Positions 8,853 through 59,190 of a DNA stretch of 64,000 bases are shown here, one piece after another (the stretch's first letter is position 1; each line of letters starts with the position of its first letter). The DNA lies in assembly GCA_013180625.2 (NCBI GenBank), contig SNVD02000262.1, positions 62,001-126,000 of the forward strand. Direction: 5' to 3'. Source of the stretch: Boswellia sacra. Lineage: Eukaryota > Streptophyta > Magnoliopsida > Sapindales > Burseraceae. The notes below the pieces were generated by a model that was given only the letters and a program-made list of their open reading frames with translations, searched no databases and had not been told where the DNA came from. A program made the translations under genes and the position numbers.

Positions 8853-9684
8853 GTTTATTCCATTAATCTTATAACTATTGAGATTTGGAATTTTAAATAA
8901 GATAGTTAATATAGTAATGAGCAAGATTTCTAGGCTAGCTTGATGAATGGACACTAAAGTATGGAAAAGAAAAAGAGAAGCACTAGGTACTCACTAATAT
9001 AATTTTTGACTGGCGAAAGCAAGAAGGAAGGATATATATGCTGTAAAAATCAAAGTGAAAGCTGATCACCAGGATGTTAGAAAATTCGATGCTTCAAATG
9101 TGATTTGGCATTATTTATTTATATTTACACGGATGATAAAAGATCCATTAATTATCATGAATATGAAAGAGCGTAAGACTACGAACAACACATATGATAG
9201 TTCGACCTCATGTCTAATAGACTTGACTTATATTCGTGTTTAAACCACTCTTTTAATTTACTTTATATCTTGTAACGGACGTATCTCGTGCAACCCTACG
9301 CTTTTAGCTTTCTTCAATAATTAGATATATTTTCAAACTCTATAAATAATTACCATTAATTAACATAACTACACAAGAATATAAGAATGCATCGAAAACA
9401 TTTATCTCTTATAAAATTCAAAACTTCTACTCCTTGTATATATCTCATTTCTTGTTCTTCTAGCTTTTCTACTTTGCAGAGATTTTAAGTTGCACAAGCA
9501 AATGAGATTCATTAATGACATAAAACTAGACTACAATTAAGTTTGAAACAGTATGATAAAAAAAGTGAATATGGATGCAAGCCCTATCTATAAATCCAAT
9601 AGTCTAATTAATATATATATATATAAATATAGAATTATCTCTCTCTCTCTCTCTCTCTCTGTCTCTTTCTATATATATGTATAT
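8853..9684. other. Unassigned AT-rich spacer with microsatellites
   Basis: No supported gene. It contains an (AT)n tract at 9,610-9,624 and a (TC)n tract at 9,638-9,660 just before A1. A 62-codon frame at 9,055-9,243 has no recognisable domain or homologue in the window and is treated as chance. Confidence 0.5.
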
Positions 9685-11090
9685 TGACACATCCGAAAAA
9701 GGATTATCTCCCAAGTATAGGAGTGTCGAAGTAATAAACCCAGTGAGACCGGGGTCGACCACGAGGAAGGGGATTTTAGCGCTATAAATTAAAAGGTAAG
9801 CAAATATGATATGAATAATCAAGATGATATTAACAAAAGGTGGTAAAACTATCCATGAAAATACGAGGTAAAACCTACAATAACAAATGAAAGAACAATT
9901 TCATAAGCAATAAATAAGAATAATTAAAGAACAAAAGTTAGAGGAATTAACACAATAATAATGAAAGCTAAGGTTATGGGATTCACCCTTGATATATCAA
10001 ATAAGGATAAGTAGCCCATTTTAGTTATACGAATTATGTTTGCTTCGTTAAAAATATTTATACCACATCTTGTAAATGGGTTCAAGCATCCAATGTGTCA
10101 ATCACCATATGTCTACAACAAATCAAGGTTCCTAACTAGACTTTTGTTGGTAAGGAAGAACCATACGACATCTAGAAAGGATCTAAGCATTTGATGCGCC
10201 AAGAATTGTCTACAATTGATCAAGACCTCCACTTTACGAGCGGTGTCAAGATTAATTAAGAAAATAAATATAAATCATATAAAATAAATAACAAAAGATT
10301 GCAATTATTAAGCACATATCAAATGGTTAGAAAATCCTTATTCTCATATCAAGGGTTTCACCATCTCACATTAGCAAGATAGAATTTAGCAAGACATTAA
10401 CCAAGAAAGAAAATAAATTGCAAGAAAAAGAAGACTTATTAATAACATAAAAATAAGAGAGAAAAACACAATCACAAGAGATCCCAGCCAAGTCGAAGAT
10501 GCTCTAATGGGTCACAAGGCACTTCTATTTATAGATACATTCAAGGGCAAACTTGTCAAATTACAAAGGAACAATTGTCAAATATTTTGTTGGCAATTGG
10601 GATCATTAGGTGCACCAATTTTGACCACCGATTTTGTCACTAAATTATTGAGAATTTTGATCACATGTATTCATGAAAGTTGTAGATATTTCTCTCAGCT
10701 TTCTAGAACATTTTGATTCATATGATTTGGATATGTATATCAAGAGATATGGTCAAAATACTAAGGCATAGTCAGGCTGGATCGAAACTGCAAATGGTTT
10801 CACTTTAAGCCTTTTTTTGGTCCACTAAGAGCCCGAATTTGATGATACTTGTGAATACAATCTTGTAGATAATTTAATCAGCTTTCCAAAACATCCAGAT
10901 TTGCATCATTTAGATAAATAAATAGAAACGTATGCCCATTTTACCGAACCTATAATAAAACCAAAATGAAGAGAAAGTTAATTTAAAAGATGCAAAGACT
11001 ACAAATATGCTTAAGTTGAGTTTAATGACACTATTAATGCAATATGATAAATTAAGCTCTTATTACATCTACATATTTATGAGTTCATCA
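9685..11090 (-). repeat. 3' LTR of A1
   Basis: About 1.4-kb LTR. On the plus strand it begins TGACACATCC and ends GTTCATCA. Read in element orientation it begins TGATGAAC and ends GGATGTGTCA. A TATA box (TCTATAAATAG on the minus strand) lies at 10,525-10,535. It is shorter than the LTRs of A3 and S1 because it lacks the extra GGTGGTA-rich segment near the R/U5 side. Confidence 0.9.
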
Positions 11091-12343: not shown

Positions 12344-12993
12344 TTACAAAAGGAGATTCAGATCCAATTTGTACTTTTTGTTTTGTCCCCCTGACCAATT
12401 AATTTGAGTTATAGCTGGGTCAGGTTCATACTTGACTGCTTGTAATTTATCAAGTAACTCACTAGCAGAAGTGGTAGAAACAAGGATATGTCGCACTGAA
12501 TGAGGGATAAAATTCTGTTCCATAATTGTATCAACAAACTTATCAAAGGATCAAGAAAATTTTTAACATTCAACAAACCTATGGGTTTTTTATGGAGATT
12601 CAGTTGAGCCCAATAAACAATTTGAAAAATTCCTTCAAGAGTACCAATGCCACTTGGTAAAGCAATAAAGGCATCTAAATTGATAAGCATATGTGTCATG
12701 CGTTCATGCATAGAAGAGACCTGTAACTCCTTCCCAACCGTTTTTCCTACGATGCTTTATACAGCCAAAGCTTTACGAATAACTCCTAAAACTTGACTAT
12801 CTCCTACATGTGCAGCTGTTGACACACAACCCATTAACCCGAGGCTACCTCCTCCATAAACCACATGAATCTTTCTTTCAGCTAATAGCCTACCAAGATA
12901 ATTTGCTACTTCTATAAACTCTTCACTTTTATCCAGTCGAGATCTACAAAATACACATATCCTTTGGATTCGACGTTTTGAAGTTTCCTCCAT
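12344..12993 (-). pseudogene. LOG-family phosphoribohydrolase gene carried by A1 (broken)
   Basis: LOG enzymes split cytokinin riboside 5'-monophosphates to release active cytokinin bases. The frame starts MEETSKRRIQRICVFC at 12,993 and has the family's usual length, about 217 codons. GGGSLGLMG, the nucleotide-binding loop, is at residues 47-55 and MHER at 95-98. The PGGxGTxxE signature reads PSGIGTLEG (residues 113-121), so the second Gly is Ser and the catalytic Glu is Gly. PIGLLNVKNF follows, and the C-terminus ends near TQINW. Breaks are an in-frame TAA at codon 79 and a one-base deletion near 12,540 that shifts the last third. No intron interrupts it, whereas plant LOG genes normally have several, so capture through RNA is likely. 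It lies 326 bp downstream of ORF-X on the same strand, before the 3' LTR. Confidence 0.88.
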
Positions 12994-13319
12994 GTCTATG
13001 CAACTCTCTAACTATGTGTGAAGAAGAGAACAAGGGATGTCATATTTATGGAGTGTAAGGTATTCGAATGATGACACCTAAATAGGTAGCTCGATTGTTT
13101 GTTGAAAAAAAGTTTGACAATAATGCATAGAAATACAAAAAAAGATGATGAAATAAGGCACCATAAATGCACAAGTCAAACAAAAGATACAAATTAAAAA
13201 ATGACAGTTGTAATGTATTAAAACTAAAAAATGATAGCACCCATGCATATGTACAGGTAGCTGTGACTGTGGCTCACATCTTCCTCTAGTTTTACGTCCA
13301 GAAATGGCTTAAACACCTT
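12994..13319 (-). promoter_or_regulatory. Spacer upstream of A1 LOG with TATA-like box
   Basis: Non-coding spacer between ORF-X and LOG. On the minus strand CATAAATATG (13,041-13,050) lies about 50 bases before the LOG start. In A3 the same place reads CTATAAAAATG, a better TATA box. A pyrimidine-rich stretch (TTCTCTTCTTCACACA) follows before the ATG. The spacing would suit an independent LOG transcript, but that is inference. Confidence 0.4.
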
Positions 13320-13868
13320 CTATGAGTTAGGGATATGCTTCCTATCCAGTTTTCTTATAAACTGATAAAAAGGGTCGTTTTGAGTTAGATTCCCAAGACT
13401 ATAACGTTCCTGCTCGTCCTGGAATTGTGTCCACAATTTAAAAATTTCACGTTGCACAAGTCCACAAGAATGCGTCTCAAGAGTCAATCGAATATCATCC
13501 AAAGACTCCTTACTGAGTCCATTTTTGATGAATTGTAACTTATCCTTTCGATTGTTAGACAAATATCCTAAGGAGCGGCAACGCTGGTTACAAATCCATC
13601 TTGCACATTTGTGACAAACTTGTAACCTTTTTGCTCTTCACTTTTTGGCGTAAGAGCTTTTTCCCAAACCTGGCATGTGAGAAACAAGATTATCTGAAAA
13701 CTCACAAGAAAATCGAACCTTGGCTTCAATTAACCATCCTAAATCAGCAGGAATACCCTTGCACATCAACACCCTTAGTCTTTTTGCGCGAGCTTTGTAA
13801 ATTTTAAGCAAATCATTTTGAGGAAGAGAGGGAAAACGTTTGTGTAGATTCGAGAGAATGGTATCCAT
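13320..13868 (-). pseudogene. ORF-X of A1: small basic Cys-rich protein (broken)
   Basis: Frame of 182 codons starting MDTILSNLHKRF at 13,868 and ending KHIPNS. The N-terminal half is helical (DLLKIYKARAKRL, GIPADLGWLIEAKVRFS). In the middle is MPGLGKSSYAKK, an in-frame TGA, then RAKRLQVCHKCARWICNQRC, a basic run followed by a C-x2-C-x4-C-x3-C cluster. The C-terminal half is charged (NGLSKESLDDIRLTLE). The same frame, with almost the same length, occurs in A3 (39,517-40,065) and A2 (58,289-58,834). The glycine/serine stretch, basic run, Cys cluster and small size recall the cysteine-rich nucleic-acid-binding proteins of plant betaflexiviruses. That resemblance is my judgement from memory, not a search result. 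Otherwise the protein is unknown. Confidence 0.7.
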
Positions 13869-13995: not shown

Positions 13996-15280
13996 TTAAA
14001 AAGGATCAACTAAAGCAATGGACTCTTCATTTCGATCAAAATTTTTAAAAAATGGTTTTAATCGTTGTCCATTAACTTTAAAAACATTACTATTCTTTTG
14101 GTTCTCAATTTCAACAGCTCCATGAGAGCAAACATTTTTAATAATGAAAGGCCCAGTCCAACAATCTTGAATCATACAAAAGAACCTTTTGTGAAGGTCC
14201 CAAAGATTTTCTAACAATGAATTTGTCATGAAAAACCTTCATTTTTTCTTTGTAGATTTTAGAATTTTCATAAGCCTCATTCCTGATTTCTTCAAGTTCA
14301 CTCAGTTAGAGTTTACGTAACTTGCAAGCGTCATTCAAACTTGTGTTAAATGTTTTAATGGCCCAATAAGCTTTATGCTCAATTTTCACAGGCAAGTGAT
14401 AAGGTTTTCCATAAACTAATCTATAAGGTGACATTCCCAATGATGTTTTGAAAGCAGTTCAGTAAGCCTAAAGTGCATGATTAAGTCTTAAAGACCAATC
14501 TTTACGATTTGGGTTAACCGTTTTTTCTAAGATTTGCATAATCTCCCTATTAGCTAATTCAACTTGTCCTTGTTTGCAAGTGATAAGGTGTAGAAACTTT
14601 ATAGGTTATTCCATATTTATTCATTAGAGTTTCAAATGGTTTGTTACAAAAATGTGTACCCCCATCACTAATAATGGCTCGAGGAATTCCAAATCTACAC
14701 AATATATTCTCTTTCAAGAATTTGATAACTATTTTGTGACCATTGTTTCGACATAGAATTGCCTCGACCCATTTTGAAACATAGTATACTGCAACAAGAA
14801 TGTACACAAAACCAAATGATGGTGGAAAAGGTCCCATAAAATAAATACTCCAACAATCAAAGATTTCAACAATAAGAATGGGATTCAAAGGCATCGTGTT
14901 TCGTTTAGAAATGGATCCCAATTTTTGACAATTTTCACAAGTTTTACAAAATGCATGTGCATCTTTAAATAAGGTGGGCAATAAAATCCACATTGCAAGA
15001 TTTTAGCAGCTGTTTTTTTAGATGAAAAATATCCTCCACATGCTTCGAAATGACAAAAATTAATGACACTACTTACCTCATTGTCAGGTATGCATCTTCT
15101 AATTATTTGGTCCGGACAATATTTGAACAGATATGGGTTATTCCAATAAAAATTTTTCACCTCCGTCAAAAATTTCCTTTTGTCATGAGCATTCCAATGA
15201 GGTGGCATTTCTCTTGCCGCAAGAAAATTTACAATGTTAGCAAACCAAGGTACTACAGCGACGAAGAATAAAAATTCATT
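13996..15280 (-). pseudogene. Integrase of A1 (broken)
   Basis: Integrase joins element cDNA to host DNA. The N-terminal HHCC zinc region reads CHFEACGGYF through CKTCENCQK, split over frames at 15,406-14,885 and 14,993-14,559. In the catalytic core the first Asp is lost (WSIYFMGPF; A3 has WGIDFMGPF) and the second is present in [14 protein letters not shown]. The C-terminus ends FFKNFDRNEESIALVDPF at 13,996. Frameshifts and stops separate the parts. It is followed after about 130 bp by ORF-X. Confidence 0.85.
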
Positions 15281-15700
15281 ATGATAAGAGTCATCGATAG
15301 GTGAAGTTTTAATTAATGTCTCTATCATTAATCTTGAAAGATGATCTGCAACGACATTTTCGGCTCCTTTCTTATCCTTTATTGTGATGTTGAATTCTTG
15401 GAGCAATAAGATCCATCATATCAATCTAGGTTTTGCATCCTGTTTAGACATTAAATATCTCATAGTTGCATGGTCAGTGTAAACAATTGTTGGAAAACCA
15501 ATTAAATAATATCAAAATTTGTCCAATGCAAATACTACTGCAAGTAGTTCCTTTTTAGTTGTTGTGTAATTCATTTGTGCATCATTTAAAGTCCTACTTG
15601 CATAGTATATCACATAAGGCTTACCTTCTTTTCTTTGACCCAAGATAGTACGAACGGCATAATGACTTGTATCACATGTCAATTTAAAAGGCAAGGACCA
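15281..15700 (-). pseudogene. RNase H domain of A1 (broken)
   Basis: RNase H removes the RNA template during reverse transcription. Visible text includes [31 protein letters not shown] split over frames; A3 has the expected [14 protein letters not shown]. The stretches [20 protein letters not shown] and DHLSRL are typical of gypsy elements. Broken by frame changes. Confidence 0.8.
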
Positions 15701-16717
15701 ATCGGGAGATTGTATAATTTGGAGCAGTTGTTAAAATTACAATTATCTTATCAAAGGCATTTTGACATTCTTGAGTCCATTCAAAAGAAGTGTCTTTTAT
15801 TAAGAGGTTACAAAGAGGTTTAGATATAGCACTGAAATTTCTTATGAACCTCCTACAAAATCTAGCATGACCTAAGAATGAACGGACCTCTTTAACTGTT
15901 TTTGGTGGAGACAAATGGGAAATTAATTCCACTTTTTCTTTATCCACTTCAATTCCCTTAGAAGGCACCACATGACCTAAGACAATTCCCGAAGTGACCA
16001 TATAATGACATTTTTTCCAATTCAAAATAAGACCTTTTTCTTCACACCTTTTTAGGACTTTTTCTAAGTTTTCAAGACAATTATCAAAAGAGTTTTCAAA
16101 AACATTTAAATCATTCATGAAAACTTCTAAACATTGCTTAACCATGTCACTAAAAATGCTTAACATGCATCTTTGAAAAGTGCAAAAGTGTCGAACGGGC
16201 ACGTGAACGTGGTCTTTTCTTGGTCTTCAAGTGCAATGGGAATTTGATACTAGCCTGAGTATCCATCGAGAAAGCAATAGTAAGAGTGTCCTGCTACTCT
16301 TTCTAGAATTTGGTCAAGGAATGGGAAGGGAAAATGGTCTTTTCGGGTGACAACATTTAATTTTCTATAATCGATGCACATCCTCCAACTAGATGAGACT
16401 CAAGTTGATAATGATTCACCCTCTTTATTTTTTACTATTGTAATTCCATATTTCTTAGATACTACTTGTATAGGGCTTACCCACTTGCTATCAGAAATAG
16501 GGTAGATAATTCCCACATCAAGCAATTTAAGAACTTCAGCCCTAATAACCTTTTTCATATGTGGATTCAATCTTCTTTGAGGTTGTTGGGATGTACAAAT
16601 CAAAGGGTTAATGCCTTTTATGGCTTTTAAAGTCCACTCGATTGCATTTTTATGCCCTTTAAGTACTTCTATCAACTTACCTTGTTGCTCGCTTGGGAGG
16701 GATAAAGAAATTACCAT
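15684..16717 (-). pseudogene. Reverse transcriptase of A1 (broken)
   Basis: RT of the Athila type, in the order VISLSLPSEQQGKLIEVLK, VIRAEVLKLLDVGIIYPISDSKWVS, then the palm. A deletion of nearly 50 bp relative to A3, near 16,185, removes the PFGLCNA segment. The catalytic FMDD reads FMND (VFMNDLNVF), which should abolish activity. The connection region (GIEVDKEKVELISHL, EVRSFLGHARF) is well preserved. Confidence 0.85.
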
Positions 16718-17677: not shown

Positions 17678-18536
17678 TTAAGGAAATGGAGGCACAGATG
17701 AGGATTTGGTTTCTTCTTTGCTAGGTGTTGGTTTGGCAACCTTTTCTTGCTCTTTAGAGATCGATTGTTCTTCTTTCTCATAAGGGTTAGGAATTTGTTT
17801 TTCAACAACCTTACCATTGCGAAGGGTCATGACTGATTTGGCTTGGCCAAAATAATGGTTACTTAAACTCCCTGCATTTGTGTTAGATTGATCTTTAGGG
17901 TTTTGCAATGTTTGAGAATGGAATTTTCATCTTTCTTGGATGCTAAATGTGGATGCAAATTTTGCAAGAGTGTTTGACAAATTTGCTAATGTTTGAGCAG
18001 TTTGACTATTGAAAGTCTCTTGCTTTGTAATGAATGAATTCAAGTCTCTTCAAGGTCATTCATAGGAGGAGGACCATATGCATGATCAAGAGAATTTTGA
18101 AAACTTTGTCGTGTTTGAAAATGGACTTGTGAAGATTGTGCATGATTGTCATTTTTCCAACTAAAATTTGGATGATTTCTCCAACCAGAATTGTAGGTTT
18201 ATGAGTATGGATTGTGATTTGGCCTTTTGAAAGTGTTCAAGGCATTGGCTTGTTCATGGAGACATTCCCTAAAGGTAGGCAAAGTTAGGCACTCATCAGT
18301 AGAATGGTCATTATCATTACAAATGTGACAGACAGTTTCTTGAATAGAATTTAATTGACCGCTCTTTTTCATTTCTAAAGCCTCGACTTTTCTAGCTAGG
18401 GATGCAAATTTGGCTTGAAGGTCATGGTCTTCCCTGACGTTGTAAATGTCTCTATTGGATGTCGAGGTTGGGGCCTTGCTTGGTGCCTCATAGGTGCCAG
18501 CAGTGTCCCAAGTTTAGGCTTTATTTGCTAGGGAAT
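17678..18536 (-). pseudogene. Gag C-terminal half of A1, zinc-knuckle part
   Basis: Second part of the A1 Gag, separated from the N-terminal part by the solo LTR S1. It contains a CCHC zinc knuckle on the minus strand near 18,290-18,345 (CHICNDNDHS, matching C-x2-C-x4-H-x4-C in A3), then RPNHNP text. It ends with the acidic, proline-rich linker VMTLRNGKVVEKQIPNPYEKE at 17,908-17,678. Several stops are present. Confidence 0.78.
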
Positions 18537-20065
18537 TGACACATCCGAAAAAGGATTGTCTCCCAAGTATAGGAGTGTCGAAGTAATAAAACCCGGTGAG
18601 ACCGGGGTCGATCCACGAGGAAGGGAATTTAAGCGTTACAAATTATAAGCTAAACAAATGTGATATGGATAATTCAAAGAGGTGACATGATAATATCAAC
18701 AAGTATGTAAGATGGTAGGTGGTATTACCGACCATTCAAATATAAAACAAAAAGCAAGAGGAGGTAAAACCATCCATGGAAATAGGTGGTATAACCAACC
18801 ACAGTAAATTAAAGAACAATTTCATAAGGTGGTAGAACCTACCATAGTAAATAAAATAAAAAGTTCATAAACAATAGAATAATTAAAATACAAGAGGAAT
18901 TAACACAATAACAATGAAGGCTAAGGTTAGGGGATCCGCCCTTGATATTTCAAATAAGGATAATTAACCCATTTTAGTTATATGAATTATATTTGTTTCA
19001 TTACCAATATTTATACCACTTCTTGTAAATGGGTTCAAGCATCCAATGTGCCAATCACCATATGTCTACAACAAATCAAGGTTCCTAACTAGATTCGTGT
19101 CGGTAAGGAAGAACCATACATCATCTAGAAAGGATCCAAGCATTTGATGTGCCAAGGATTGTCGACAATGGATCAAGACCTCCACTTTACGAGTGGTGTC
19201 AAGATTGATTAAGAAATTAAATATAAATCATATTGAATAGACATTATAAGATTAAGATTATTAAGCACATATTAAGGGTTAGAGAATCCTTATTCTCATA
19301 TCAAGGGTTTCACCCTTTCACCTTAGCAAAAGAGAAATTAGAAGAACATTATAATAGAAAGAAAATAAAATGCAAGAAAAAGGAAATTCATTAATAACAT
19401 AAACACACAAAACACAATACAAGATCCTAGCCAAAGCCAAAATGTTCCAGCCAAGGCCAAGATGCCCTAATGGGTCACAAGGCACCTCTATTTATAGATA
19501 CATCCAGGGGCAAACTTGTCAAATTACAAGGGCATAATTGTCAAATATTAGTTGTAAATATCTTTGACAATTGGGATCATTAGGCACCGACTTTGACCAT
19601 CAATTTTGACATCGAAATGTTGTGAATTTTAATCACATGTCTTCATGAAAGTTGTAGATATTTCTCTCAGCTTTCTATAACATATTGATTTGCACAATTT
19701 GGATACGTATTTTGAGAGATACGGTCCAAATACTGAGGCCTGGTCAGACTGGGCCGAGACTGTAGATGGGTTCACTTCAAGCCCAATTTTGGTCCACTAA
19801 GAGCCCGAATTTGATGATGCTTGTGAAATGCAATCTTGTAGACAATTAAATCAGCTTTCCAAAACATTAAGAATTGCACCATTCTGATCTATAAATAGAG
19901 AGTTATGCCCATTTTACCGAACCTGTAACAAAACCAAAATTAAGAGAAATTAATTTCAAAGATGCAAATGCTACAAATATGCTTAAGTTGAGGAATTTAA
20001 TGACACTATTAATGCAATATGATGAACTAAACTCTTATTAAATATGCATATTTAAGTGTTCATCA
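18537..20065 (-). mobile_element. Solo LTR S1 of the Athila-LOG family inside A1 gag
   Basis: A lone LTR of 1,529 bp, TGACACATCC to GTGTTCATCA, with TSD GGAAT on both sides (18,532-18,536 and 20,066-20,070). Across the insertion the A1 gag lines up with the uninterrupted gag of A3 (near 44,810). Its sequence, including GGTGGTATTACCGACC, is nearer to the A3 LTRs than to those of A1. It formed by recombination between the two LTRs of a once complete element. Confidence 0.93.
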
Positions 20066-20839: not shown

Positions 20840-20845
20840 AAAACT

Positions 20846-22262
20846 TGACACATCCGAAAAAGGATTATCTCCCAAGTATAGGAGTGTCGAAGTAATAAAC
20901 CTTGTGAGACTGGGGTCGATCCACGAGGAAGGAGATTTTAGCGCTAGAAATTAAAAGGTAAGCAAATATGATATGAATAATCAAGATGATATTAACAAAA
21001 GCTGGTAAAACCATCTATGGAAATAAGAGGTAAAACGTACCATAGCAAATGAAAGAATAATTTCATAAGTAATAAATAAGAATAATTACAGTATAAAAAT
21101 AAGAGGAATTAACGCAATAATAATGAAAGCTAAGGTTAGGGGATTTACCCTTGATATATCAAATAAGGATAAGTAGCCCATTTTAGTTATATGAATTATA
21201 TTTGTTTCATTACCAATATTTATACCACTTCTTGTAAATGGGTTCAAGCATCTAATGTGCTAATCACCATATGTCTGCAACAAATCAAGGTTCCTAACTA
21301 GATTTGTGTCAGTAAAGAAGAACCATATGGCATCTAGAAAGGATCCAAGCATTTGATGTGTCAAGGATTGTCTCCAATGGATCAAGACCTCCACTTTACG
21401 AGTCGTGTCAAGATTAATTAAGAAAATAAATATAAATCATATAAAATAAATAACAAAAGATTATGATTATTAAGCACATATCAAAGGATTAGAAAATCTT
21501 TATTCTCATATCAAGGGTTTCACCCTTTCACCTTAGCAAAATAGAATTTAGCAAGACATTAAGCAAGAAAGAAAATAAATTGCAAGAAAAAGAAGATTTA
21601 TTCATAACATAAAAATAAGAGCGAAAAACACAATCACAATAGATCTTAGTCAAGGCCAAGATGCCTTAATGGGTCACAAGGCACCCCTATTTATGGATAC
21701 ATTCAAGGGCAAACTTGTCAAATTATAAAGGAACAATTGTCAAATATTTTGTTGATAATTGTGATCATTAGGTGCACCAACTTTGACCATCGATTTCGAC
21801 ACCAAATTATTGAGAATTTTGATCATATATCTTCATGAAAGTTGTAGATATTTCTCTAAGCTTTCTAGAACATCTTGATTCATATGATTTGGATACGTAT
21901 TTCAAGAGATAAGGTCAAAATACTGAGGGATGATCAGGCTGGGCCAAAACTATAGATGGGTTCACTTCAAGCCCATTTTTGGTCCACTAAGAGCCCGAAT
22001 TTGATGATGCTTATGAAATACAATGTTGTAGATAATTTAATTAGCTTTCCCAAACATCAAGATTTGCACCATTCTGAACTATAAGTAGAAAGTTGTACTT
22101 ATTATACCGAACATACAACAAAACTAAAATTAAGAAAAAGTTAATCCAAAAGATGCAAAGACTACAAATATGCTTAAGTTGAGGCATTTAATGACACTAT
22201 TAATGCAATATGATGAATTAAGCTCTTATTAAGCATACATATTTAAGTTTTCATCATCATCA
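20846..22262 (-). repeat. 5' LTR of A1
   Basis: About 1.4 kb, from TGACACATCC to TTTTCATCATCATCA. The true edge is either 22,256 or 22,262 because of a CAT slippage; the second choice gives TSD TATAT. It shares small differences with the LTR at 9,685-11,090 against S1 and A3, as expected for the two ends of one insertion. Confidence 0.9.
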
Positions 22263-24914: not shown

Positions 24915-26448
24915 TGATGAACACTTAAATGTGTATGTTTCATAAGAGCTTAATTCATCATATTATACTAATAGTGTCATTAAATTGCTTGACTTAAACA
25001 TATTTGTAATTTTTGCAACTTTTGAATTAGTTTCATTTTGATTTTAGTTTTTTATGCAGGTTTGGTAAAATGGGCGTAACTTTCTATTCATAGATTAGAA
25101 TGATGCAAATCTTGATTTGATGGAAAGTTGATTAAATTATTGACGAAATTATATTTCATAAAGATCATGAAATTCGGGCGTTTAGTGGACCAAAATTGGG
25201 CTTGAAAATAACCCATCTACAGTTTCAGCCCAACCTAACTATGCCTCCGTATTTTAACCTTATATCTTCAAATGCGTATCCAAATTGTATGAATCAAGGC
25301 ATTCTAGAAAACTAAGAGAAATATCCACAACTTTTATGAAGACATGTGATCAAAATTATTAATATTTCGACATCAAAATTTATGGCCAAAGTCGGTGCAC
25401 ATGATCATCCAAATTGTCAAGTGCCTCCTTTGTAATTTGATAATTTTGTCACTTAATTATGTCTATAAATAGATGAAGTTGTGACTCAAAGAGGCATCTT
25501 GGCTCTTGGCTAGGATCTTTTAACATTGTGGTTTCTCTCTTGTGTTTTGTTCTCTTAATATTATTAATAAATCCTTTTCTTCTTGCAATTTATTTCTTTC
25601 TTCCATAATGTCTTGCTAAATTCTCTCTTGCTAAGCTGAAAGGGTGAAACCCTTGATATAAGAATGAGGATTTTCTAACCCTTTGATATGTGCTTAAAAA
25701 TCATAATCTTGTGTTGTTTATTTTATATGTTTTATATTTATTTTCTTAATCAATCTTGACACCACTTATAAACTAGAGGTCTTAATCCATTATAGACAAT
25801 CTTTGGTACATCAAATGCTTGGATCCTTGTATGTTCCTTACCAACACAAGTCTAGTTAGAAACATTGATTTGTTATAGACATATGATGATTGGCACATTG
25901 GATGCTTGAACCCATTTACAATAAGTGGTATAAATATTGGTAATGAAACAAATATAATTCATATAACTAAAATGGGCTTAAATGAAATACCTTTCGATTG
26001 GAACCTTCCTGATGTGTGGATTCCAATTGAGTTATAATGGGTTTATTTATCCTTATTTGATATATCAAGGGCGGATCCCCTAACCTTAGCTTTCACTGTT
26101 ATTGTGTTAATTTATCTTACTTGTGTATTTCATTTATTCTCGTTTGGAAGCTTATGAAATTGTTCTTTCATTTGCTATGGTAGGTTTCACCACCTATTTC
26201 CATGGATGGTTTTACTACCTCTTATTTTTTATTTATATTTGACTAGTTGATTGTACTGCCTACCATCTTTACTTTTATTTGTTAATATTGTCTTATTCTT
26301 GTTTCTTATTTGAATTATTTATATCATATTTGCTCTTCTTTTAGTCTGTATTACTAAATCTCCTTCCTTGTGGATCAACACTGGTCTTATCAAGTTTATC
26401 AGTTTGACACTTCTATACTTGGGAGATAATCCTTTTTTGGATGTGTCA
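24915..26448 (+). repeat. 5' LTR of A2
   Basis: LTR of 1,534 bp from TGATGAACAC to GGATGTGTCA. A TATA box (TCTATAAATAG) lies at 25,462-25,472. It reads opposite to the LTRs of A1 and A3, matching the plus orientation of A2 pol. Confidence 0.9.
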
Positions 26449-26454
26449 AATTTT

Positions 26455-26473
26455 TAGCATCGTTGGCCGAGAA
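26455..26473 (+). promoter_or_regulatory. Decayed primer-binding site of A2
   Basis: TAGCATCGTTGGCCGAGAA aligns with the tRNA-Asp-type site of A1 (TGGCGCTGTTGCCGGGGA) with several mismatches. It sits at the same distance from the LTR. Confidence 0.6.
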
Positions 26474-26499
26474 GGCAAAATTTGGCGCACAAAATTGCA

Positions 26500-27565
26500 A
26501 ATATTCCTTTTACCAATGTTGGGATAGGTACAAAGAATTGCTTAGTACCTATCCCTACCATCAATTTGAAACTTAGAGATTGGTTTCAAATTTCTATGGA
26601 AGGTTAACACCTCGAGATAGGCAATTAGTAGAACTAATGTGTAATGGGTAATTTTGAGACAAAGGCCCAGAGGAAGCAATTGACTATCTGGACTTACTAG
26701 AAGAAAAGCCCAAAATTGGGACACTGTTGGCGACTATGAGGTACTTAGCAAAACCTTACCCTCGACATCCAGTAGAGGCATTTATAACCTTAGGAAAGAC
26801 CATGACTTTCATGCTAAATATGCATCTCTACCTAGAAAAGTCGAGGCTTTGGAAATGAAGGAAATGAAAAAGAGTAGTCAATTAAAGTCCTTTCAAGAAA
26901 CTATTTGTCACATTTGTCATATGTATGACCATCCTATTGATGATTATCCAACTTTGCTTGCTTTTAGGGAATGTCTATATGAACAAACCAATGTATTAAA
27001 CACTTTTAAAAGGCCTAATCACAATCCATTATTCACAAACTTACAATCTCAGTTGGAGAAATCATCCCAATTTCAGTCAGAAGATTGACAATCATGCACA
27101 ATCTTCACAAGCCCCCTTTCAAACACATAAAAAATTTAAAAATTCTCATGATCATGCATCATATGTTCCTCCTCCTAAAAAGGATCTTGAAGAAACATTG
27201 CATTCATTTACTATAAAGCAAAAGACCTTTAATACTCAAACTTCTCAAACATTAGCAAATTTGACAAGCACTCTTGCAAAATTTGCATCTACATTTAATA
27301 TCCAAGAAAAAGAGAAATTTCTTTCTCAAACATTGCAAAACCCCAAAGATCAATCTAAATCAAGGACAGGAAGTTCAAATAGCCATTATTTCGACAAAGC
27401 CAAATCAGTCATGACCCTTCGTAATGGTAAGGTTGTCAAAAAACATATTTTTAAACTTTATAAGAATGAAGATGAATCGATCTCTAAGGTAAGGAAGAGT
27501 TTAGTATGACAACACCTAGCGAAAAGGAAACCAAATCCCTACCTGTGTCACCATTTCCTTAAAAT
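26500..27565 (+). pseudogene. Gag remnant of A2, N-terminal two thirds deleted
   Basis: The leader jumps from GGCGCACAAAATTGC straight into the Gag region matching CWDRYKELL in A3 (here CQCWDRYK-like text around 26,510-26,560). The MKIWS start and the main Gag core are therefore gone. The zinc knuckle reads CHICHMYDHPIDDYPTL (26,849-27,088 frame); its last Cys has become Tyr. The linker VMTLRNGKVVKKHIF follows at 27,198-27,509. Stops interrupt every part. Confidence 0.78.
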
Positions 27566-27599
27566 TTACCACTCATAAGAAGCCAAACCACAACTCTAA

Positions 27600-35753: not shown

Positions 35754-35758
35754 CTTCT

Positions 35759-37227
35759 TGGCACATTCAAAAATAGGATCATCTCCCAAGTACAAAAGTG
35801 TTAAAGTAATAAACCTGGTGAGACCGCGATCGATCCATAAGGAAGGGGTTTTAGCCTTACAAACTATAAAATGAGAGAATAAGATATGAATAATGTAAAT
35901 AAATGCTAAGATGATGTTACCAAAAAGATGGTAGGTGGTAGTACTGACCATTCAAATGTAAAACAAAAAGCAAAAGGTGGTAAAACCATCCATGAAAATA
36001 GGTGGGAAAACCTACCATAGCAAATTAAAGAACAAGTTCATAACAATAGATGAGAATAATTAAAATATACAAGTAAAAAGAATTAACACAATAATAATGA
36101 AAGTTAAGGTTAGGGGATCCGCCCTTGATATGTCAAATAAGGATAAGTAGCCCATTTTAGTTATATGAATTATATTTGTTTCGTTACCAATATTTATACC
36201 ACTTCTTGTAAATGGGTTCAAGCGTCCAATGTGTCAATCACCATATGTCTGCAACAAATCAAGGTTCCTAACTAGACTTCTGTCGGTAAGGAAGAGCCAT
36301 ACGACATCTAGAAAAGATCCAAGCATTTGATGTGCCAAGGATTGTCGACAATGCATCAAGACCTCCACTTTACGAGTGGTGTCAAGATTGATTAGGGAAA
36401 TAAATATAAATCATACAAAATAAATAACAAAGATTATGATTATTAAGCACATATCAAACGGTTAAAAATTTCTTATTCTCATATCAAGGGTTTCACCCTT
36501 TCACCTTACCAAGAGAGAAATTAGAAAGATATTATAAAAGAAAGAAAACAAATTGCAAGAAAAAGAAGATTTATTAATAGCATAAAAACACAAGAGAGAA
36601 AAATACAATAACAAGTGATCTCAGCCAAGGCCAAGATGTGCTAATGGGTTACAAGGCACCTCTATTTATAGATACATTCAGGGGCAAACTTGTCAAATTA
36701 CAAAGGAGCAATTGTCAAATATTTTGTTGACAATTGGGATCATTAGGTGCACCAAATTTGTTCACCAATTTTGGCACTGAATTATTTCGAATTTTGATCA
36801 CATGTCTCCATGAAATTTGTAGATATTTCTCTCAGCTTTCTAGAACATCTTGATTACTACAATTTGTATACGTAAATCAAGAGATATGATCAAAATACCG
36901 AGTCATGGTTAAGTTGGGCTAAAACTGCAAATGGGTTCACTTCAAGACCATTTTTGGTCCACTAAGAGTCCGAATTTGGTGATGCTTGTGAAGTACAATC
37001 TTGTAGATAATTTAATCAACCTTCCAAAACATTAAGATTTGCACCATTCGGATCTATAAATAGAAAGTTATGCCTATTTTACCGAACCTACAATAAAACC
37101 AAAATTAAAAGTTAATTCAAAAGATGCAAATACTACAAATATACTTAAGTTGAGGAATTTAATGACACTATTAATGCAATATGATGAATAAAGCTCTTAT
37201 TAAGTATACATATTTAAGTGTTTATCA
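35759..37227 (-). repeat. 3' LTR of A3
   Basis: LTR of 1,469 bp. The outer edge has decayed to TGGCACATTC (TGACACATCC elsewhere). The inner edge ends GTTTATCA. A TATA box (TATAAATAGAGG on the minus strand) lies near 36,660-36,672. Confidence 0.9.
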
Positions 37228-38598
37228 CACCCCCCAATCAGCTTATTGCTAGTCCCTAGCAATTAAATCACTATTATTTAGAAGTGATTTATAGAATTTT
37301 ACATCCAAGGTGGTCATTATTGCACCCTTCTTGATTTTATCCAAATGAACAAACTCTCAACCGATTTTTTTTTAAATGACTCATTTATTCTTCAGTCAAT
37401 ATATTAACAAATCTTGTTTTTGTGCTAAGTCGATACATGATTATGGGGCTTTTTAGAAAGAAGCCATGTCCGTTCCAATATTTGTTAAGGCTAACAACCT
37501 TAGGTAGGGGGCATTCATTCATCATTATTTTTATTTATATATATCTTTTTCTTCTTTTTTTTCTTTTGAAAGAATGCATCTTTAACCCATTTAGTGAGCC
37601 TTAGGCTAATGACTCCCAGACCAGTTGGCCTTAGGGGTGTTAAGACACCCTTACGAGCTTAACAACTCGAGTTGCCGATGCTTTATTTTTGCTTAAAAAC
37701 TTGTGGATAGTGTAATGTTCAATCCCATTAAGCTTTCTCCTTAATCCATGTAACGAGTTTTGGGTCAATAGCTCCCAAACCAGTTGGTCTTAGGGTATTA
37801 GATGTTAAGGCACCCCTCAGGCTTAATTGCTCGAATTAGGGAGGCTACGAGACCAAACTTATCCATAATTGCTCTTTTTTTCCTTTCACTTTTTTTCTTT
37901 TCTTTTTTTTTTGAACTTTCCCTTTCCTTTTGTTTTTATCCTAAACAAAACAAAAGAACTCATATATTACAAAATTTCATTTCGCCACCCACAGTCATGC
38001 ATCAAGGTATGTGTGTGTGTGAAGAAAGATTCACAAATACTTGCTTAACAAGTACAAAAGCACACAGTTTATTAAATGATAAGGTTGTGAGAGTTCACAG
38101 ATTTGAATAATTCAAAGTGAAATGAATAAGACCTCCTTGTTATAAAATTCAAAAATCAAAACTAGAGAATATCAAGTTAGCTAAAATGAGTCTTCAAAAA
38201 TGCAAAATCAAAACAAAATAACAAATTAGTTAGAATGTGTTTCAAGAGTTCAAACTAGTCCTCTTTACTCTGCCATTTCTAGCCCAGAATACGTCTCAAG
38301 AGGGTTTGAACTCCTTATACCACAATCTGAATCTAATTACTAACTCGTTTTTTTTTTCCTGCAAGAAAAGGAAAATTTAAAACATACTTATGTCTACTAT
38401 CCTTCCCCCCCAACCAAATCAAACATTGTCCTCAATGTTTAAATATAAAGAGATAAAGTATAGGAGACATTACCTGAAGCTTCTACTATTCAAGAGAGAC
38501 GACCTAAAAGACTCATAAAATAAAATACTAAAAATAAAATAAAAGACAAGAAAAAATTACAAACGAAGATTCAGATCCAATTTGCACTTTTTGTTTTA
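37228..38598 (-). other. 3' untranslated region of A3 with polypurine tract
   Basis: ATTGGGGGGTG on the minus strand (37,228-37,238) touches the LTR and is the polypurine tract. The rest parallels A1 11,091-12,343, including the CAGTTGGTCTTAGGG modules (37,615-37,815) and a pyrimidine tract near 37,868-37,915. No gene. Confidence 0.72.
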
Positions 38599-39186
38599 TC
38601 ACCCTAACCAATTAATTTGAGTTTTAGATGGGTCAGGTTCATACTCGACTTCTTGTAATTTATCAAGTAACTCACTAGCAGAAGTGGCAGAAATAAGGAT
38701 CTGTCGCACCGAATGAGGGATAAAATTCTGTTCCACAGCTGCATCAACAAAACTTATCAAAGGATCAAAGAAATTTTTAACGTTCAACAAACCTATGGGT
38801 TTTTTATAGAGATTCAGTTGGTCCCAAGAGGCAATTTGAAAAATTTCTTCAAGAGTACCAAAGCCACTTAGTAAAGCAATAAAGGCATCTGAATTGATAA
38901 GCATATGTGCCATGCGTTCATGCATAGAGGAGACCTGTAACTCCTTCCTAACCATTTTTCCAACGAGGCTTTCTACAGCCAAAACTTGACTACCTCCTAC
39001 ATGTGCAGTTGTTGACACACAACCCTTTAACCAGAGGCTACCTCCCCTATAAACCACATGAATCTTTCTTTCAGCTCATAGCCTACCAAGATAATTTGCT
39101 ACTTCTACAAACTCTTCACTTTTGCCCGGTCGAGATCCACAGAATACAGTTATCCTTTGGATTCGACGTTTTAAAGTTTCCTCCAT
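38599..39186 (-). pseudogene. LOG-family phosphoribohydrolase gene carried by A3 (broken)
   Basis: Second copy of the captured LOG gene. It starts MEETLKRRIQRITVFCGSRP at 39,186. An in-frame TGA after NYLGRL stops it near codon 37. From 39,057 to 38,599 a 152-codon frame stays open. The nucleotide loop is damaged (RGGSLWLKG). The signature reads LSGFGTLEE: the two Glu are kept, the Pro is Leu and the second Gly is Ser, the same Ser as in A1. A 21-bp deletion removes seven residues before AVESLVGK. The C-terminus is intact (VRQILISATSASELLDKL, TQINWLG). No introns. Same position as in A1, downstream of ORF-X. Confidence 0.9.
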
Positions 39187-39516
39187 GTCTATGCAACTCT
39201 CTAACTATGTGTGTGAAGAGAAGAACAAGAGATATCATTTTTATAGAGTGCAAAAAGGTATTCTAATGATAACACCTATATATGTAGCTCGACTATTAGT
39301 TGAAAAAGTTTAACAATAATGCATAAAAATTAAAAAAAAAATGACAGAAATAAGACACCATAAATGTATAAGTCAAACAAAAGCTATAAATTTAAAAATG
39401 ACAGCTGTAGGGCATTAAAATTAAAAAATGATGGCACACATGCATATGTACAAGTAGTTGTGATTGTAGCTCACATCTTCCTCTAGTTTTACGTCCAGAA
39501 ATGGCTTAAGCACCTT
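39187..39516 (-). promoter_or_regulatory. Spacer upstream of A3 LOG with TATA box
   Basis: Non-coding spacer with CTATAAAAATG on the minus strand (39,236-39,246), about 50 bases before the LOG ATG. TCTTCTCTTCACACACATAG lies between them. Homologous to 12,994-13,319. It may be a promoter for LOG, taken with the gene or evolved in the element. Confidence 0.45.
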
Positions 39517-40065
39517 CTATGAGTTGGGGATATGCTTCCCATCCAGTTTTCTTATAAACTGGCAAACAGGGTCGTTTTGAGTCAGATTCCCAAGACTATA
39601 ACGTTCCTGCTCATCTTGAAATTGTGTCCACAATTTAAAAATTTCACACTGCACAATTTTACAAGAATGCGTCTCAAGAGTCAATCGAATATCATCTAAA
39701 GACTCCCTACTCAGTCCATTCTCGATGAATTGTAGCTTATCCTCTTGATTATTAGAAAAATATCCCAAGGAGTGGCAACGCTAGTTACAAGTCCATCTTG
39801 CACATCTGTGACAAACTTGTAACCTTTTTGCTCTTCGCTTTTTGGCGTAAGAGCTTTTTCTCAAACCTGGTATGTTAGAAAGAAGATTATCTTAAAACTC
39901 ACGAGAAAATCGAACCTTGGTTTCAATTAACCATCTTAAATCAGCAGGAATACCCTTGCACATCAACATCCTTAGTCTTTCTACGCGAGCTTTGTAAATT
40001 TTAAGTAAATCATTTTGAGGAAGAGAGGGAAAATGTTTGTGCATATTTGAGAGAATGGTATCCAT
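39517..40065 (-). pseudogene. ORF-X of A3: small basic Cys-rich protein (broken)
   Basis: The frame spans 549 nt, the same as in A1. It starts MDTILSNMHKHFPSLPQ and ends KHIPNS. The centre reads SSYAKKRRAKRLQVCHRC then ARWTCN, a stop, RCHSLG. Here the basic run is complete, with an Arg codon where A1 has a stop. The C-terminal part has GLSRESLDDIRLTLE and KLWTQFQDEQERYSLGNL. The Cys cluster and basic run are the conserved core among copies. Function unknown; the same viral-type resemblance as noted for A1 applies. Confidence 0.7.
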
Positions 40066-40192: not shown

Positions 40193-41415
40193 TTAAAAAG
40201 GATCGACTAAAGCAATAGACTTTTCATTTCGATCAAAATTTTCAAAGAATGGTTTTAACCGTTGTCCATTAACTTTAAAAACATTACCATTCTTTGGGTT
40301 CTCAATTTCAACAGCTCCATGAGAGAAAACATTTTTAACAATGAAAGGCCTAGTCCAACGAGACTGAAGTTTACCAGGAAACAAATGCAATCTCGAATCA
40401 TACAAAAGAAATTTTTGTGAAGGTTCAAAAGATTTTCTAACAATGAATTTGTCATGAAAAACCTTCGTTTTTTCTTTGTAGATTTTAGAATTTTCATAAG
40501 CCTCATTCCTAATTTCTTCGAGTTTACTCAGTTGGAGTTTACGTAACTTGCAAGCATCATTCAAATTTGTGTTAAATGTTTTAATGGCCCAATAAGCTTT
40601 ATGCTCAATTTCCACAGGCAAGTGACAAGGTTTTCCATAAACTAATCAATAAGGAGACATTCCCAATGATGTTTTGAAAGTAGTTCAGTAAGCCCAAAGT
40701 ACGTCATTAAGTCTTAAAGATCAATCTTTACGATTTGGGTTAACCATTTTTTCTAAGATCTGTTTTATCTCCCTATTAGCTAATTCAACTTGTCCACTTG
40801 TTTGCGGGTGATAAGTTGTAGAAATTTTATGGGTTATTCCATATTTCTTCATTAAAGTTTCAAATGGTTTGTTACAAAAATGAGTACCCCCATCGCTAAT
40901 AATGGCTCGAGGAATTCCAAATCTACACAAGATATTCACTTTCAAGAATTTGATAACTATTTTGTGATCATTGTTTCGACATGAATTGCCTCAACACATT
41001 TTGAAACATAGTCTGCTGCAACAAGCATGTGCATAAAACCAAATAATGGTGGAAAAGGTCCCATAAAATCAATACCCCAACAGTCAAAATTTTCAACAAC
41101 AAGAATAGGATTCAAAGGCATCAAGTTTCGTTTTGAAATGGATCCTCATTTTTGACAATTTTCACAAGTTTTACAAAATGCATGTGCATCTTTAAATAAG
41201 GTGGGCTAATAAAATCCATATTGCAAGATTTTAGCAGCTGTATTTTTAGATGAAAAATGTCCTCCACATGCTTCAGAATGACAAAAATTGATGATACTAC
41301 TTACCTCATTGTCAGGTATGCATCTTCTATTTATTTGGTCTGAACAATATTTGAACAGATATGGGTCATCCCAATAAAAATTTTTCACCTCAGTCAAAAA
41401 CTTCATTTTGTCTTG
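40193..41415 (-). pseudogene. Integrase of A3 (broken)
   Basis: The zinc domain begins RRCIPDNEVSSIINFCHSEA and CGGHFSSKNTAAKILQYGFY. The catalytic core has WGIDFMGPF with the first Asp kept, then [20 protein letters not shown], then [20 protein letters not shown] with the acidic third residue. The C-terminal domain is at 40,621-40,193 and ends KPFFENFDRNEKSIALVDPF. The DDE residues are present but frames are split at about 41,200, 40,950 and 40,700. Confidence 0.87.
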
Positions 41416-41547: not shown

Positions 41548-41990
41548 CTATGTCGGTAATCTTGAAAGATGATTTACAACGACATTTTCGGCTCCTTTCT
41601 TATCCTTTATTATGATGTTGAATTCTTGGAGCAATAAGATCCACTGTATCAATCTAGGTTTTGTATCCTGTTCAAACATTAAATATCTCACAACTGCATG
41701 GTCAATGTAAACAATCGTTGGAGAACCAATTAAATAAGATCGAAATTTGTCCAATGCAAACACTACTACAAGTATTTCTTTTTCAGTTGTTGTGTAATTC
41801 ATTTGTGCATCATTTAAAGTCCCATTTGCATAGTATATCACATAAGGCTTGCCTTCTTTTCTTTGTCCCAAGACAGCACCAACGGCATAATCACTTGCAT
41901 CACACATCAATTCAAAAGGCAAAGACCAGTCGGGAGATTGCATAATTGGAGCAGATATTAAAAGTCCAATTAACTTATCAAAGGCATTTT
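41548..41990 (-). pseudogene. RNase H domain of A3
   Basis: Part of a 234-codon open frame (42,252-41,548) that also covers the RT connection region. RNase H text: [51 protein letters not shown] and NHLSRLP. The Asp and Glu residues expected for catalysis are visible. It is the best preserved RNase H in the window. Confidence 0.85.
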
Positions 41991-42850
41991 TACATTCTTG
42001 AGTCCATTCAAAAGAAATGTCTTTTATTAAGAGGTTAGAAAGAGGCTTAGATATAACGCTAAAATTTCTTATGAACCTCCTATAAAATCTACTATACCCT
42101 AAGAATGAATGGACCTCTTTAACTGTTTTTGGTGGAGGCAAATGGGAAATTAATTTCACTTTTGCTTTGTCCACTTCAATTCCCTTAGAAGACACCATAT
42201 GACCTGAGACAATTCCTGAAGTGACCATATAATGACATTTTTCCCAATTCAAAATAAGACATTTTTTTACACACCTTTTTAAGACTTTTTCTAAGTTTCA
42301 AGACAATTCTCAAAAGAATTTCCAAAGACAGTTAAATCATCCATGAAAACTTCTAAACAATGCTCAACTGTGTCACTAAAAATGCTTAACATGCATCGTT
42401 GAAAAGTGACTAGGGCATTACAAAGTCCAAAAGGCATCATTCTAAATGCAAAAGTGTTGAAGGGGCACATGAATATGGTCTTTTCTTGGTCTTCAAGTGC
42501 AATGGGAATTTGATAATAGCCTGAATATCCATCAAGAAAGGAGTAGTAAGAGTGCCGTGCTACTCTTTTTAGAATTTGGTCAATGAATGGTAAGGGAAAA
42601 TGGTCTTTTCTGGTGACAGGATTTAATTTTCTATAATCAATGCACATCCTCCAACTATATGAGACTCAAGTTGGCAATGATTCACCCTTTTCATTTTTGA
42701 CTACTATAATACCAGATTTCTTAGGTACTACTTGTGTAGGACCTACTCACTGACTATTAGAAATAGAGCAGATAATTCTCACATCAAGTAGTTTGAGAAC
42801 TTCAGCCCTAATGACCTTTTTCGTGTGGGGATTTAATCTCCTTTGAGTTG
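41991..42850 (-). pseudogene. Reverse transcriptase of A3 (broken)
   Basis: The RT palm reads MCIDYRKLNPVTRKDHFPLP, SFLDGYSGYYQIPIALEDQE, FRMMPFGLCNALVTFQRCM and VFMDDLTVFG. The catalytic FMDD is intact. A frameshift at about 42,290 separates this frame (42,647-42,291) from the connection region that continues at 42,252. Stops near 42,690-42,850 cut off the N-terminal RT part. Confidence 0.87.
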
Positions 42851-51065: not shown

Positions 51066-51520
51066 CAAGAATGTCAAAATGCTTTTGATAAGTTAATTGG
51101 ACTTTTAACAACTGCTTTAATTATGCAATCTTCTCATTGGTCCGTGCCTTTTGAATTGATGTGTGATGCAAGCGATTATGCTATTGGTGCCTTCTTAGGG
51201 CAAAGAAGAGAAAGTAAGCCTTATTTAATATACTATGCAAGTAGAACTCTAAATGACGCACAAATGAATTACACTACAATTGAAAAAGAACTACTGCAGT
51301 AGCATTTGCATTGGACAAATTTCGATCTTATTTAATTGATTTCCCAACTGTTGTTTACACTAACCATGTTGTTGTGAGAGATTTAATGTCCAAACAGGAT
51401 GCAAAACCCAGATTGATATGGTGGATCTTATTGCTTCAAAAATTCAACATCACAATAAAGGATAAGAAAGGAGTCAAAAATGTCGTTGCAGATCATTTAT
51501 CAAGATTGACAACAGAGGCA
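51066..51520 (+). pseudogene. RNase H domain of A2 (broken)
   Basis: [20 protein letters not shown], then [15 protein letters not shown], then a frameshift near 51,298 into [20 protein letters not shown] and ADHLSRLTTEAS. One catalytic Asp (YIDH in A3) has become Asn. Confidence 0.82.
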
Positions 51521-58288: not shown

Positions 58289-58834
58289 ATGAATACTATT
58301 CTTCAAATCTAAAAACACATTTTCCCTCTCTTTCTCAAAATAATTTGCTTAAAATTTACAAAGCACGAGTACAAAAACTAAGAATGCTGACCAAATACTA
58401 TTCCTATTGATCTAAGATAGTTAATTGAAGCCAAGGTTCGATTATCTTGTGAATCTCCAGATGGTTTTGTTTCTTATATGCCAGGTTTAGGAAGAAGCTC
58501 ATACACTAAAAAAGGAAGAGCCAAAAGATTACAAGTCTGTTACAAATGTGCAAGATGGACTTATAAACAATGTTGCCGCTCTTTGGGTTTTGTGTTTAAC
58601 AATCGAGAGGATAAGCCTCGATTAATCAAGAATGGTTTGAGTAGCGAGTCTTTGGACAATGTCATATTGACTCTTGAGATGCATCCTTGTAAAATTGTGC
58701 AACGTAAAATCTTGAAACTATAAATCCAATTTAGAGAAGATCATGCACAATACAGTCTCGGGAATTTGACTGAAAACGACTATGTTTGCCAGTTTATAAG
58801 AAAATTGGATGGGAAGCACATTTCCAACTCATAG
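58289..58834 (+). pseudogene. ORF-X of A2: small basic Cys-rich protein (broken)
   Basis: Third copy of the element gene. It starts MNTILQI at 58,289 and soon meets a stop. The frame 58,478-58,723 reads MPGLGRSSYTKKGRAKRLQ, VCYKCARWTYKQCCRSLGF, then GLSSESLDNVILTLEMHPC and a stop after KILKL. It ends KHISNS at 58,834. Across the basic run and Cys cluster this copy has no stop. The third Cys is Tyr but an adjacent Cys is gained. Length matches A1 and A3 within one codon. Confidence 0.7.
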
Positions 58835-58878
58835 AAGGTCTTTAAGTCATTTCTGGACGTAAAACTAGAGAAAGATGT

Positions 58879-59190
58879 GGCTTTGGTACTTTCCAAGAAA
58901 TTTTTCGAATTGCATCTTTGACCCAACTGAATCCCCATCAGAAACCCATAGGTTTGTTGAATGTTAATAATTTCTTTCATCCTTTATTACATTTTATTGA
59001 TGAAGTTGTGGAACAAAATTTTATCCCACACTTGGCACGACGAATCCTTGTTTCTATTACTACTTTCGAGGAACTGCTTGACAAATTAGAAGCAATTGAT
59101 TATGAACCTAACCAAGCAATAACTCAAATTAATTGGTTAATAGGACACAACAATAAGTTTAAACTGGATCTAACGTTCGTTTGTAATTTT
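58879..59190 (+). pseudogene. LOG-family gene of A2, 5' half deleted
   Basis: Only the C-terminal half of LOG remains. It starts inside the signature (GTFQEIFRIAS), followed by TQLNPHQKPIGLLNVNNFF, EQNFIPHLARRILVS and ELLDKLEAIDYEPNQAITQI. A deletion joins GATGTG of the ORF-X downstream spacer to the LOG middle, removing the start, the TATA spacer, GGGSLGLMG and MHER. A one-base change at the end loses the A1-type stop. This fragment cannot be an enzyme. Confidence 0.87.

Follow-up and report, generated by a model that had tools for sequence, protein, structure and literature searches.

An Athila-type retrotransposon family of Boswellia sacra carries, on the reading that we lean towards, a module of two accessory genes, one for a viral-type nucleic-acid-binding protein (NABP) and one for a nucleotide phosphoribohydrolase derived from LOG, which it acquired once and has kept for its own multiplication. 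Three members of the family lie in the window, the whole 64-kb stretch of DNA that we analysed (G000:C139:62001-126000 of the 638.6-Mb assembly in 7431 contigs that we scanned). A1 and A3 have both LTRs and A2 is truncated, with NABP and an intronless LOG placed between the integrase and the 3' LTR. The features are the following:

9684..11090, minus strand: A1 3' LTR, 89.8% identical to the A1 5' LTR
12374..12993, minus strand: A1 LOG (subfamily II), broken by one frameshift (two pieces) and one stop; tblastn and Pfam
13243..13412, minus strand: A1 conserved island, made of the NABP 3' end and the spacer start, with a donor-like GTGAGCC; core at 13284-13301
13326..13868, minus strand: A1 ORF-X, a viral-type NABP with one stop; search for relatives and tblastn, Pfam on the relatives
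14559..15406, minus strand: A1 integrase pieces; PF00665 on 14559-14993, 45.9 bits (cut-off 32.6)
15684..16202, minus strand: A1 reverse transcriptase piece; Pfam PF00078
20822..20839, minus strand: A1 primer binding site TGGCGCTGTTGCCGGGGA, presumably tRNA-Asp-like; read from the sequence
20845..22256, minus strand: A1 5' LTR; comparison of the LTR pair
24915..26449, plus strand: probable A2 5' LTR, an LTR-like stretch on the A2 strand; LTR comparison
35757..37228, minus strand: A3 3' LTR, 89.2% identical to the A3 5' LTR; CTTCT flank
38560..39186, minus strand: A3 LOG (subfamily II) with three stops, a 152-aa ORF remaining at 38599-39057; tblastn and Pfam
39440..39609, minus strand: A3 conserved island
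39523..40065, minus strand: A3 NABP with two stops; tblastn
40193..41406, minus strand: A3 integrase pieces; rve at 30.1 bits, slightly below the cut-off of 32.6
41548..42647, minus strand: A3 reverse transcriptase and RNase H; Pfam PF00078, PF17917, PF17919
44924..45469, minus strand: A3 gag piece; Pfam PF03732
45670..47128, minus strand: A3 5' LTR; comparison of the LTR pair
58303..58828, plus strand: A2 NABP in two pieces with two stops; tblastn
58853..58870, plus strand: A2 island core, identical to the A1 and A3 cores
58879..59178, plus strand: A2 LOG, C-terminal half only; island GAT joined to GTGGC, which follows an AG inside the subfamily II LOG

The tblastn coordinates confirm the order given for A1, A3 and A2 in an earlier note on this DNA, ORF-X and then LOG after the integrase; both genes are also present in A2, as that note had it, but only half of LOG is left there. 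LOG and NABP are broken in all three window copies alike (tblastn). A1 and A3 are separate insertions, each with its own LTR pair, and on this point too the note was right. The target duplication of A3, read from the flanking sequence, is CTTCT at both ends; A1 has TATAT at both ends, a weak target duplication because the surroundings are TA-rich and a CAT repeat precedes it. The pieces of A2 are scattered over the plus strand (24915-28489, 50039-52180, 57430-60504), with A3 and other DNA in between, which makes A3 probably the younger element, inserted into A2. The A1 gag region contains a solo LTR of the same type (18536-20065), and 52520-53149 is occupied by tandem repeats of about 140 bp whose copies are 62-75% alike.

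Pfam matches and ORF coordinates in the window elements follow the Ty3/gypsy order gag-PR-RT-RH-INT, the protease match being below its cut-off (20.2 bits against 24.3). The A1 primer binding site may be of the tRNA-Asp type, which is a feature of Athila. A Pfam scan of ten pieces for a second RNase H (aRH) gave no further RNase H family match, and in A3 about 140 nt separate the end of the RNase H ORF (41548) from the next ORF (41406). There is thus no room between RNase H and integrase for an aRH, which is described as a mark of the Tat lineage (PMC6317226), so that the elements are more readily placed in Athila than in Tat. Domain order and the absent aRH together speak for the Athila lineage within the OTA group of Ty3/gypsy.

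The recurrence of the module elsewhere in the genome excludes chance. We scored the best 150 of 10198 (PF03641), 13697 (NABP) and 13084 (AtLOG3) first-look candidates, numbers that are unconfirmed and do not represent copy numbers. Stop-free sequences made up 150/150, 133/150 and 142/150 of these best matches for the PF03641, NABP and AtLOG3 queries, respectively, and the best 150 matches of AtLOG3, a query meant to reveal host exons, were all intronless (51-57% identity), so that no host gene with introns showed among them. The best 49 of the 150 LOG matches, minus one at a contig start, form a set of 48 LOG-picked loci. In 45 of them tblastn placed NABP upstream on the same strand; it did not find it at L001, L024 and L034. 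Against the LOG bias of this set, we also sampled the 150 NABP matches at every seventh row (1 to 134), which gave 20 loci; LOG lies downstream in all 20, with only its first 105 residues aligned in one. Many LOG copies are open: a frame of 205-230 aa is intact at 27 of the 48 LOG-picked loci, a sample biased to intact LOG, and one of at least 211 aa at 7 of the 20 NABP-picked loci. NABP is open at 6 of the 48 and at 19 of the 20, the latter being a biased sample.

The copies fall into three subfamilies, with 43 (I), 19 (II) and 9 (III) of 71 copies, the window copies being in II. A match to the window-type LTR occurs at five loci. At four of these, all of subfamily II (L016, L023, L028, L029), it starts 1.3-1.4 kb past LOG, as in A3, and at L024 it lies elsewhere, on the opposite strand. 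LOG and ORF-X are common to the three subfamilies, in line with the claim that the module spread with the family. As all three have it at other places in the genome, we rejected the view that the module arose by gene conversion among the window copies; LOG is neither confined to these copies through gene conversion nor always a neutral fragment.

ORF-X was correctly noticed but left nameless in the earlier note, which missed that its relatives identify it. Their Pfam relationship shows it to be a predicted NABP akin to the cysteine-rich NABPs encoded by carlaviruses and their relatives. With the A1 frame as query, 174 proteins were found at E<=0.001, and all 120 relatives listed have a precomputed PF01623, many with PF05515 in addition. 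Of 53 aligned relatives, 50 have a match to PF01623 (Carla_C4) and 48 to PF05515 (Viral_NABP) at E<=0.01. We scanned eight of the relatives with Pfam, seven with NABP and one LOG: P0121, P0122, P0140 and P0199 are above both cut-offs, P0179 is above that of PF01623 alone, P0228 stays under the cut-off and P0192 has no NABP match. All three open NABPs given from the genome itself pass both models, at 27.8-41.9 bits for PF05515 (cut-off 23) and 24.2-25.6 bits for PF01623 (cut-off 20.9). The match to PF05515 spans about 60-115 profile positions (110-224 of 227 for the NABP of L026), and the likeness is known from profile matches. The broken NABP pieces of the window gave no match to PF01623 or PF05515 in the Pfam scan, and when viral_contigs was scanned with the NABP alignment (two peptide patterns), none of the 38 stretches proved to be a relative. 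An AlphaFold model from that alignment (pLDDT 58.5, pTM 0.28) was too poor for a fold search.

The named NABP relatives come from Xanthoceras, Acer, Rhamnella, Citrus and Orobanche. Some of their gene models carry neighbouring genes: P0179 (Rhamnella) is integrase-like in its N-terminal part, with NABP after it, and P0192 (Rhamnella) and P0228 (Citrus) fuse NABP to LOG. P0001 (LOG) and P0122 (NABP) are both listed with a longest contig of 8723, which suggests that they lie on one contig. In the Boswellia genome, NABP matches are found inside long open frames of 870 aa (G000:C3305:11775-12317) and 563 aa (G000:C3673:81383-81925), and NABP may therefore be in frame with the upstream pol in some copies.

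The second gene belongs to the LOG family. The A3 ORF at 38599-39057 (minus strand) matches AtLOG3 (2a33) at E 2.4e-34 and PF03641 at 96.5 bits (cut-off 27), and the A1 pieces match PF03641 and PF18306. Open LOGs of the genome itself reach 169-178 bits with TIGR00730 (cut-off 96) and 131-132 bits with PF03641 (cut-off 27); neither they (112-119) nor AtLOG3 (132) attain the cut-off of 300 of the equivalog NF058542. We built a tree from 24 element-type sequences, 20 plant LOGs (LOG8 types and Cryptomeria among them) and 2 bacterial LOGs. The element-type sequences form one side of a branch with 100/98 support, in agreement with an earlier tree of 65 sequences that included two Arabidopsis LOGs. 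Median identity is 62% inside this group, 47% to host LOGs and 83% among hosts. The element-type relatives, so called by their LOG sequence and not by the genomic setting of each row, have Diplodiscus, Reevesia, Populus, Parasponia, Melia and Primulina among their named sources. Many of the proteins P0006-P0113 (Diplodiscus, Reevesia, Populus), annotated as cytokinin phosphoribohydrolases or hypothetical proteins, are element-type by sequence, a possible annotation problem.

The active site of these LOGs has changed at one position. In the Corynebacterium LOG, Lys100, Glu121 and Met96 are assigned to the adenine site, and Arg99 and Glu122 are the proposed catalytic residues (PMC4979012); we equated AtLOG3 K103 with Lys100, and likewise the others, by motif and not by alignment. 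At the K103 position all 120 host LOGs have Lys, against 2 of 120 element-type LOGs; the other element-type LOGs have Ile (44), Leu (41), Met (32) or Thr (1). Around it, in AtLOG3 numbering, the element-type LOGs keep R102 in 113/120, E125 in 118/120, E124 in 118/120 and T122 in 120/120, together with the phosphate motif PGGxGTxxE (GGxGT). Two other positions invariant in the 120 hosts have changed, L127F in all 120 and E164Q in 98. The copies of the genome itself have the catalytic Arg in 68/70, the catalytic Glu in 69/70 and the adenine-site Lys in 0/70; the K103 position is Ile in 40/43 copies of subfamily I, Met in 17/18 of II and Ile in 9/9 of III. The loss of this Lys in 118/120 puts plain cytokinin activation in doubt, and the element LOG may have been re-tuned or crippled as an enzyme. 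The description of LOG as a hormone-activating gene in the earlier note is weakened by the missing Lys.

The ratio dN/dS of LOG and NABP was estimated by simple pairwise NG86 on aligned codons of open and broken copies, an estimate that approaches saturation when one member of the pair is of subfamily I. It is 0.75-1.16 in the youngest pairs and drops to 0.18-0.33 between subfamilies. For LOG over all loci it is 0.75 at dS<0.03 and 0.20 at dS>0.3, and in the NABP-picked loci 1.16 (dS<0.03) and 0.33 (II-III). The values between subfamilies are well below 1, which speaks for the interpretation in the earlier note. Median dS and dN of LOG are 1.19 and 0.24 (I-II), 1.23 and 0.22 (I-III), and 0.63 and 0.21 (II-III); against subfamily I, the window copies give 0.97 and 0.28 (A1) and 1.23 and 0.27 (A3). 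NABP in the LOG-picked loci has 0.84 at dS<0.03 and 0.19 between I and II (medians), and a high value within subfamily II (0.63, 10 pairs). Integrase dS is saturated between I and II and gives no usable control. The fall with distance indicates that both genes were selected during the spread of the family, and it is the pattern expected if copies decay neutrally once inserted while replicating lineages stay constrained. These codon estimates show purifying selection on both LOG and NABP.

The 3' end of NABP and the start of the spacer form an island conserved also at synonymous sites. In two copy pairs of subfamilies I and II, 40-nt windows are 82-97% identical across the 80 nt that end NABP and some 70 nt of spacer, while elsewhere in the same pairs identity is mostly 50-85% in NABP and mostly below 60% in the spacer. 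In the three subfamily pairs, NABP pS is 0.12-0.25 over codons 157-182 and 0.48-0.71 over codons 1-156, single 13-codon windows outside the island also dipping to 0.25 and 0.35. The island is present at 65 of 68 loci, 62 with an exact GTGAG, and was not found at L022, L024 and L037. An AG stands 10-22 nt before the LOG ATG at all 63 loci where this ATG was located, AG alone being weak evidence; the recurring contexts are CAAG or ATAG and then (A/G/T)TTAG or TTAG. From this we infer a putative intron, with LOG expressed from a spliced RNA through the GT of the island. In A2 the sequence is missing from the GT of the island as far as an AG within LOG, and the junction has a 3-nt microhomology; either splicing of the copy or a simple deletion may explain this. 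RNAalifold gave weak structure for the island, where covariation cannot be judged because the copies are near-identical. A SAM riboswitch candidate at L008:1646-1738, on the strand opposite LOG, was rejected as probably a chance match (19.4 bits against a gathering threshold of 44.4 in Rfam).

That the genes are a neutral passenger, pieces of transduced genes amplified by the element and functionless, is very improbable. Every copy in the window is broken, and plant elements do transduce genes, Bs1 being an example (PMC7264820), but the dN/dS between subfamilies largely contradicts this reading, and the same LOG type is found in relatives from several plant families. If LOG is functional, it could be an ordinary cytokinin-activating enzyme, promoting cell division or meristem identity at the sites where the element moves, and the purifying selection, the kept Arg and Glu, and the GGxGT phosphate site would suit such an enzyme. 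We nevertheless hold this to be rather unlikely: the adenine-site Lys, invariant in hosts, is replaced in nearly all element-type LOGs, and in Corynebacterium alanine at AMP-contacting residues, S19A excepted, leads to a near-complete loss of activity (PMC4979012). The same Lys change, with L127F and E164Q, could instead mean a catalytically dead LOG that works as a binding or scaffold protein. This seems improbable, as the two residues proposed for catalysis, like the phosphate loop, belong to the best-kept positions.

The viral affinity of the other gene has its own alternatives, namely that ORF-X is a convergent basic/zinc protein or that the gene moved from a retroelement to a virus. The similarity is short, but two curated Pfam models are passed and the L026 protein covers the stretch of PF05515 given above; we regard these alternatives as unlikely.

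Reportedly, two Athila-like elements with similarity to LOGL4 were described by Steinbauerova in 2011, and the Athila4/Calypso endogenous retroviruses by Wright and Voytas in 2002. The former work is cited for LOG-domain elements in PMC9289625, which itself gives a YgdH/LOG domain for Gypsy consensuses from two Citrus species, C. sinensis and C. clementina, and also from Populus trichocarpa when the filter was loosened. The capture of LOG is hence not new, and the statement in the earlier note that no such family was known to be described does not stand. These elements resemble ours in having a LOG-type domain in a plant Ty3/gypsy element and are probably the same family, because we found relatives in Populus and Citrus. 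They differ in that the LOG section of that paper has no test of selection and mentions neither a changed active site nor a conserved island, and "nabp" and "carla" have no occurrence in its main text. It also presents an orchid Gypsy element with an AlkB RNA demethylase, likewise an added enzyme domain (AlkB is also found in Betaflexiviridae), but with another enzyme, a dual RNase H and a tRNA-Arg primer binding site, and with no NABP mentioned in its description (PMC9289625). Athila4/Calypso likewise have an extra ORF between integrase and 3' LTR (PMC7264820), an env-like ORF in the place where our family has NABP and LOG. The carlavirus NABPs, or cysteine-rich proteins, share with the element NABP a basic motif followed by a Cys cluster and the two Pfam models (PMC8839810); the latter differs in its length of 182 aa, its long conserved C-terminal part and its location in a retroelement. 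A literature search of titles, abstracts and passages, without supplements, found no report joining a carlavirus-type NABP to a plant retrotransposon, and none on the pairing of the two genes, the selection acting on them or the loss of the lysine. As far as we have seen, what is new is the viral-type NABP partner, the fixed two-gene module, the selection on both genes, the clade-wide loss of the adenine-site Lys and the conserved island.

The earlier interpretation is thus partly supported. In the reading that we favour, NABP and LOG would have been acquired once by the element and retained since they help it to multiply; that both are under selection suggests that the element uses them to manage the host cell. 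Carlavirus NABPs have a nuclear signal and a C4 cluster and are described as weak silencing suppressors, and that of one virus raises a transcription factor tied to cell proliferation (PMC8839810). By analogy, the element NABP would bind nucleic acid and either damp silencing or alter nuclear transcription of the host. LOG, made from the putative spliced RNA, would act on a nucleotide signal, which could be a cytokinin nucleotide or, since the base pocket has changed, a different 5'-monophosphate, and its activity would make the cell permissive. Both genes may thereby act on cell proliferation or defence. More tentatively, the whole could be a virus-like cassette for host manipulation, with a NABP that suppresses silencing or changes transcription, a LOG re-tuned by the Lys loss, spliced RNAs and a conserved RNA element, the two genes being the halves of one programme of counter-defence and cell reprogramming.

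The finding identifies two accessory genes, both kept by selection, in one retrotransposon family, and it names a residue and RNA sites for testing, the loss of the adenine-site Lys offering the sharpest test. It raises the possibility that retrotransposons encode many of the plant proteins now annotated as LOG enzymes, and it ties together RNA-virus counter-defence, hormone or nucleotide signalling and the spread of retrotransposons.
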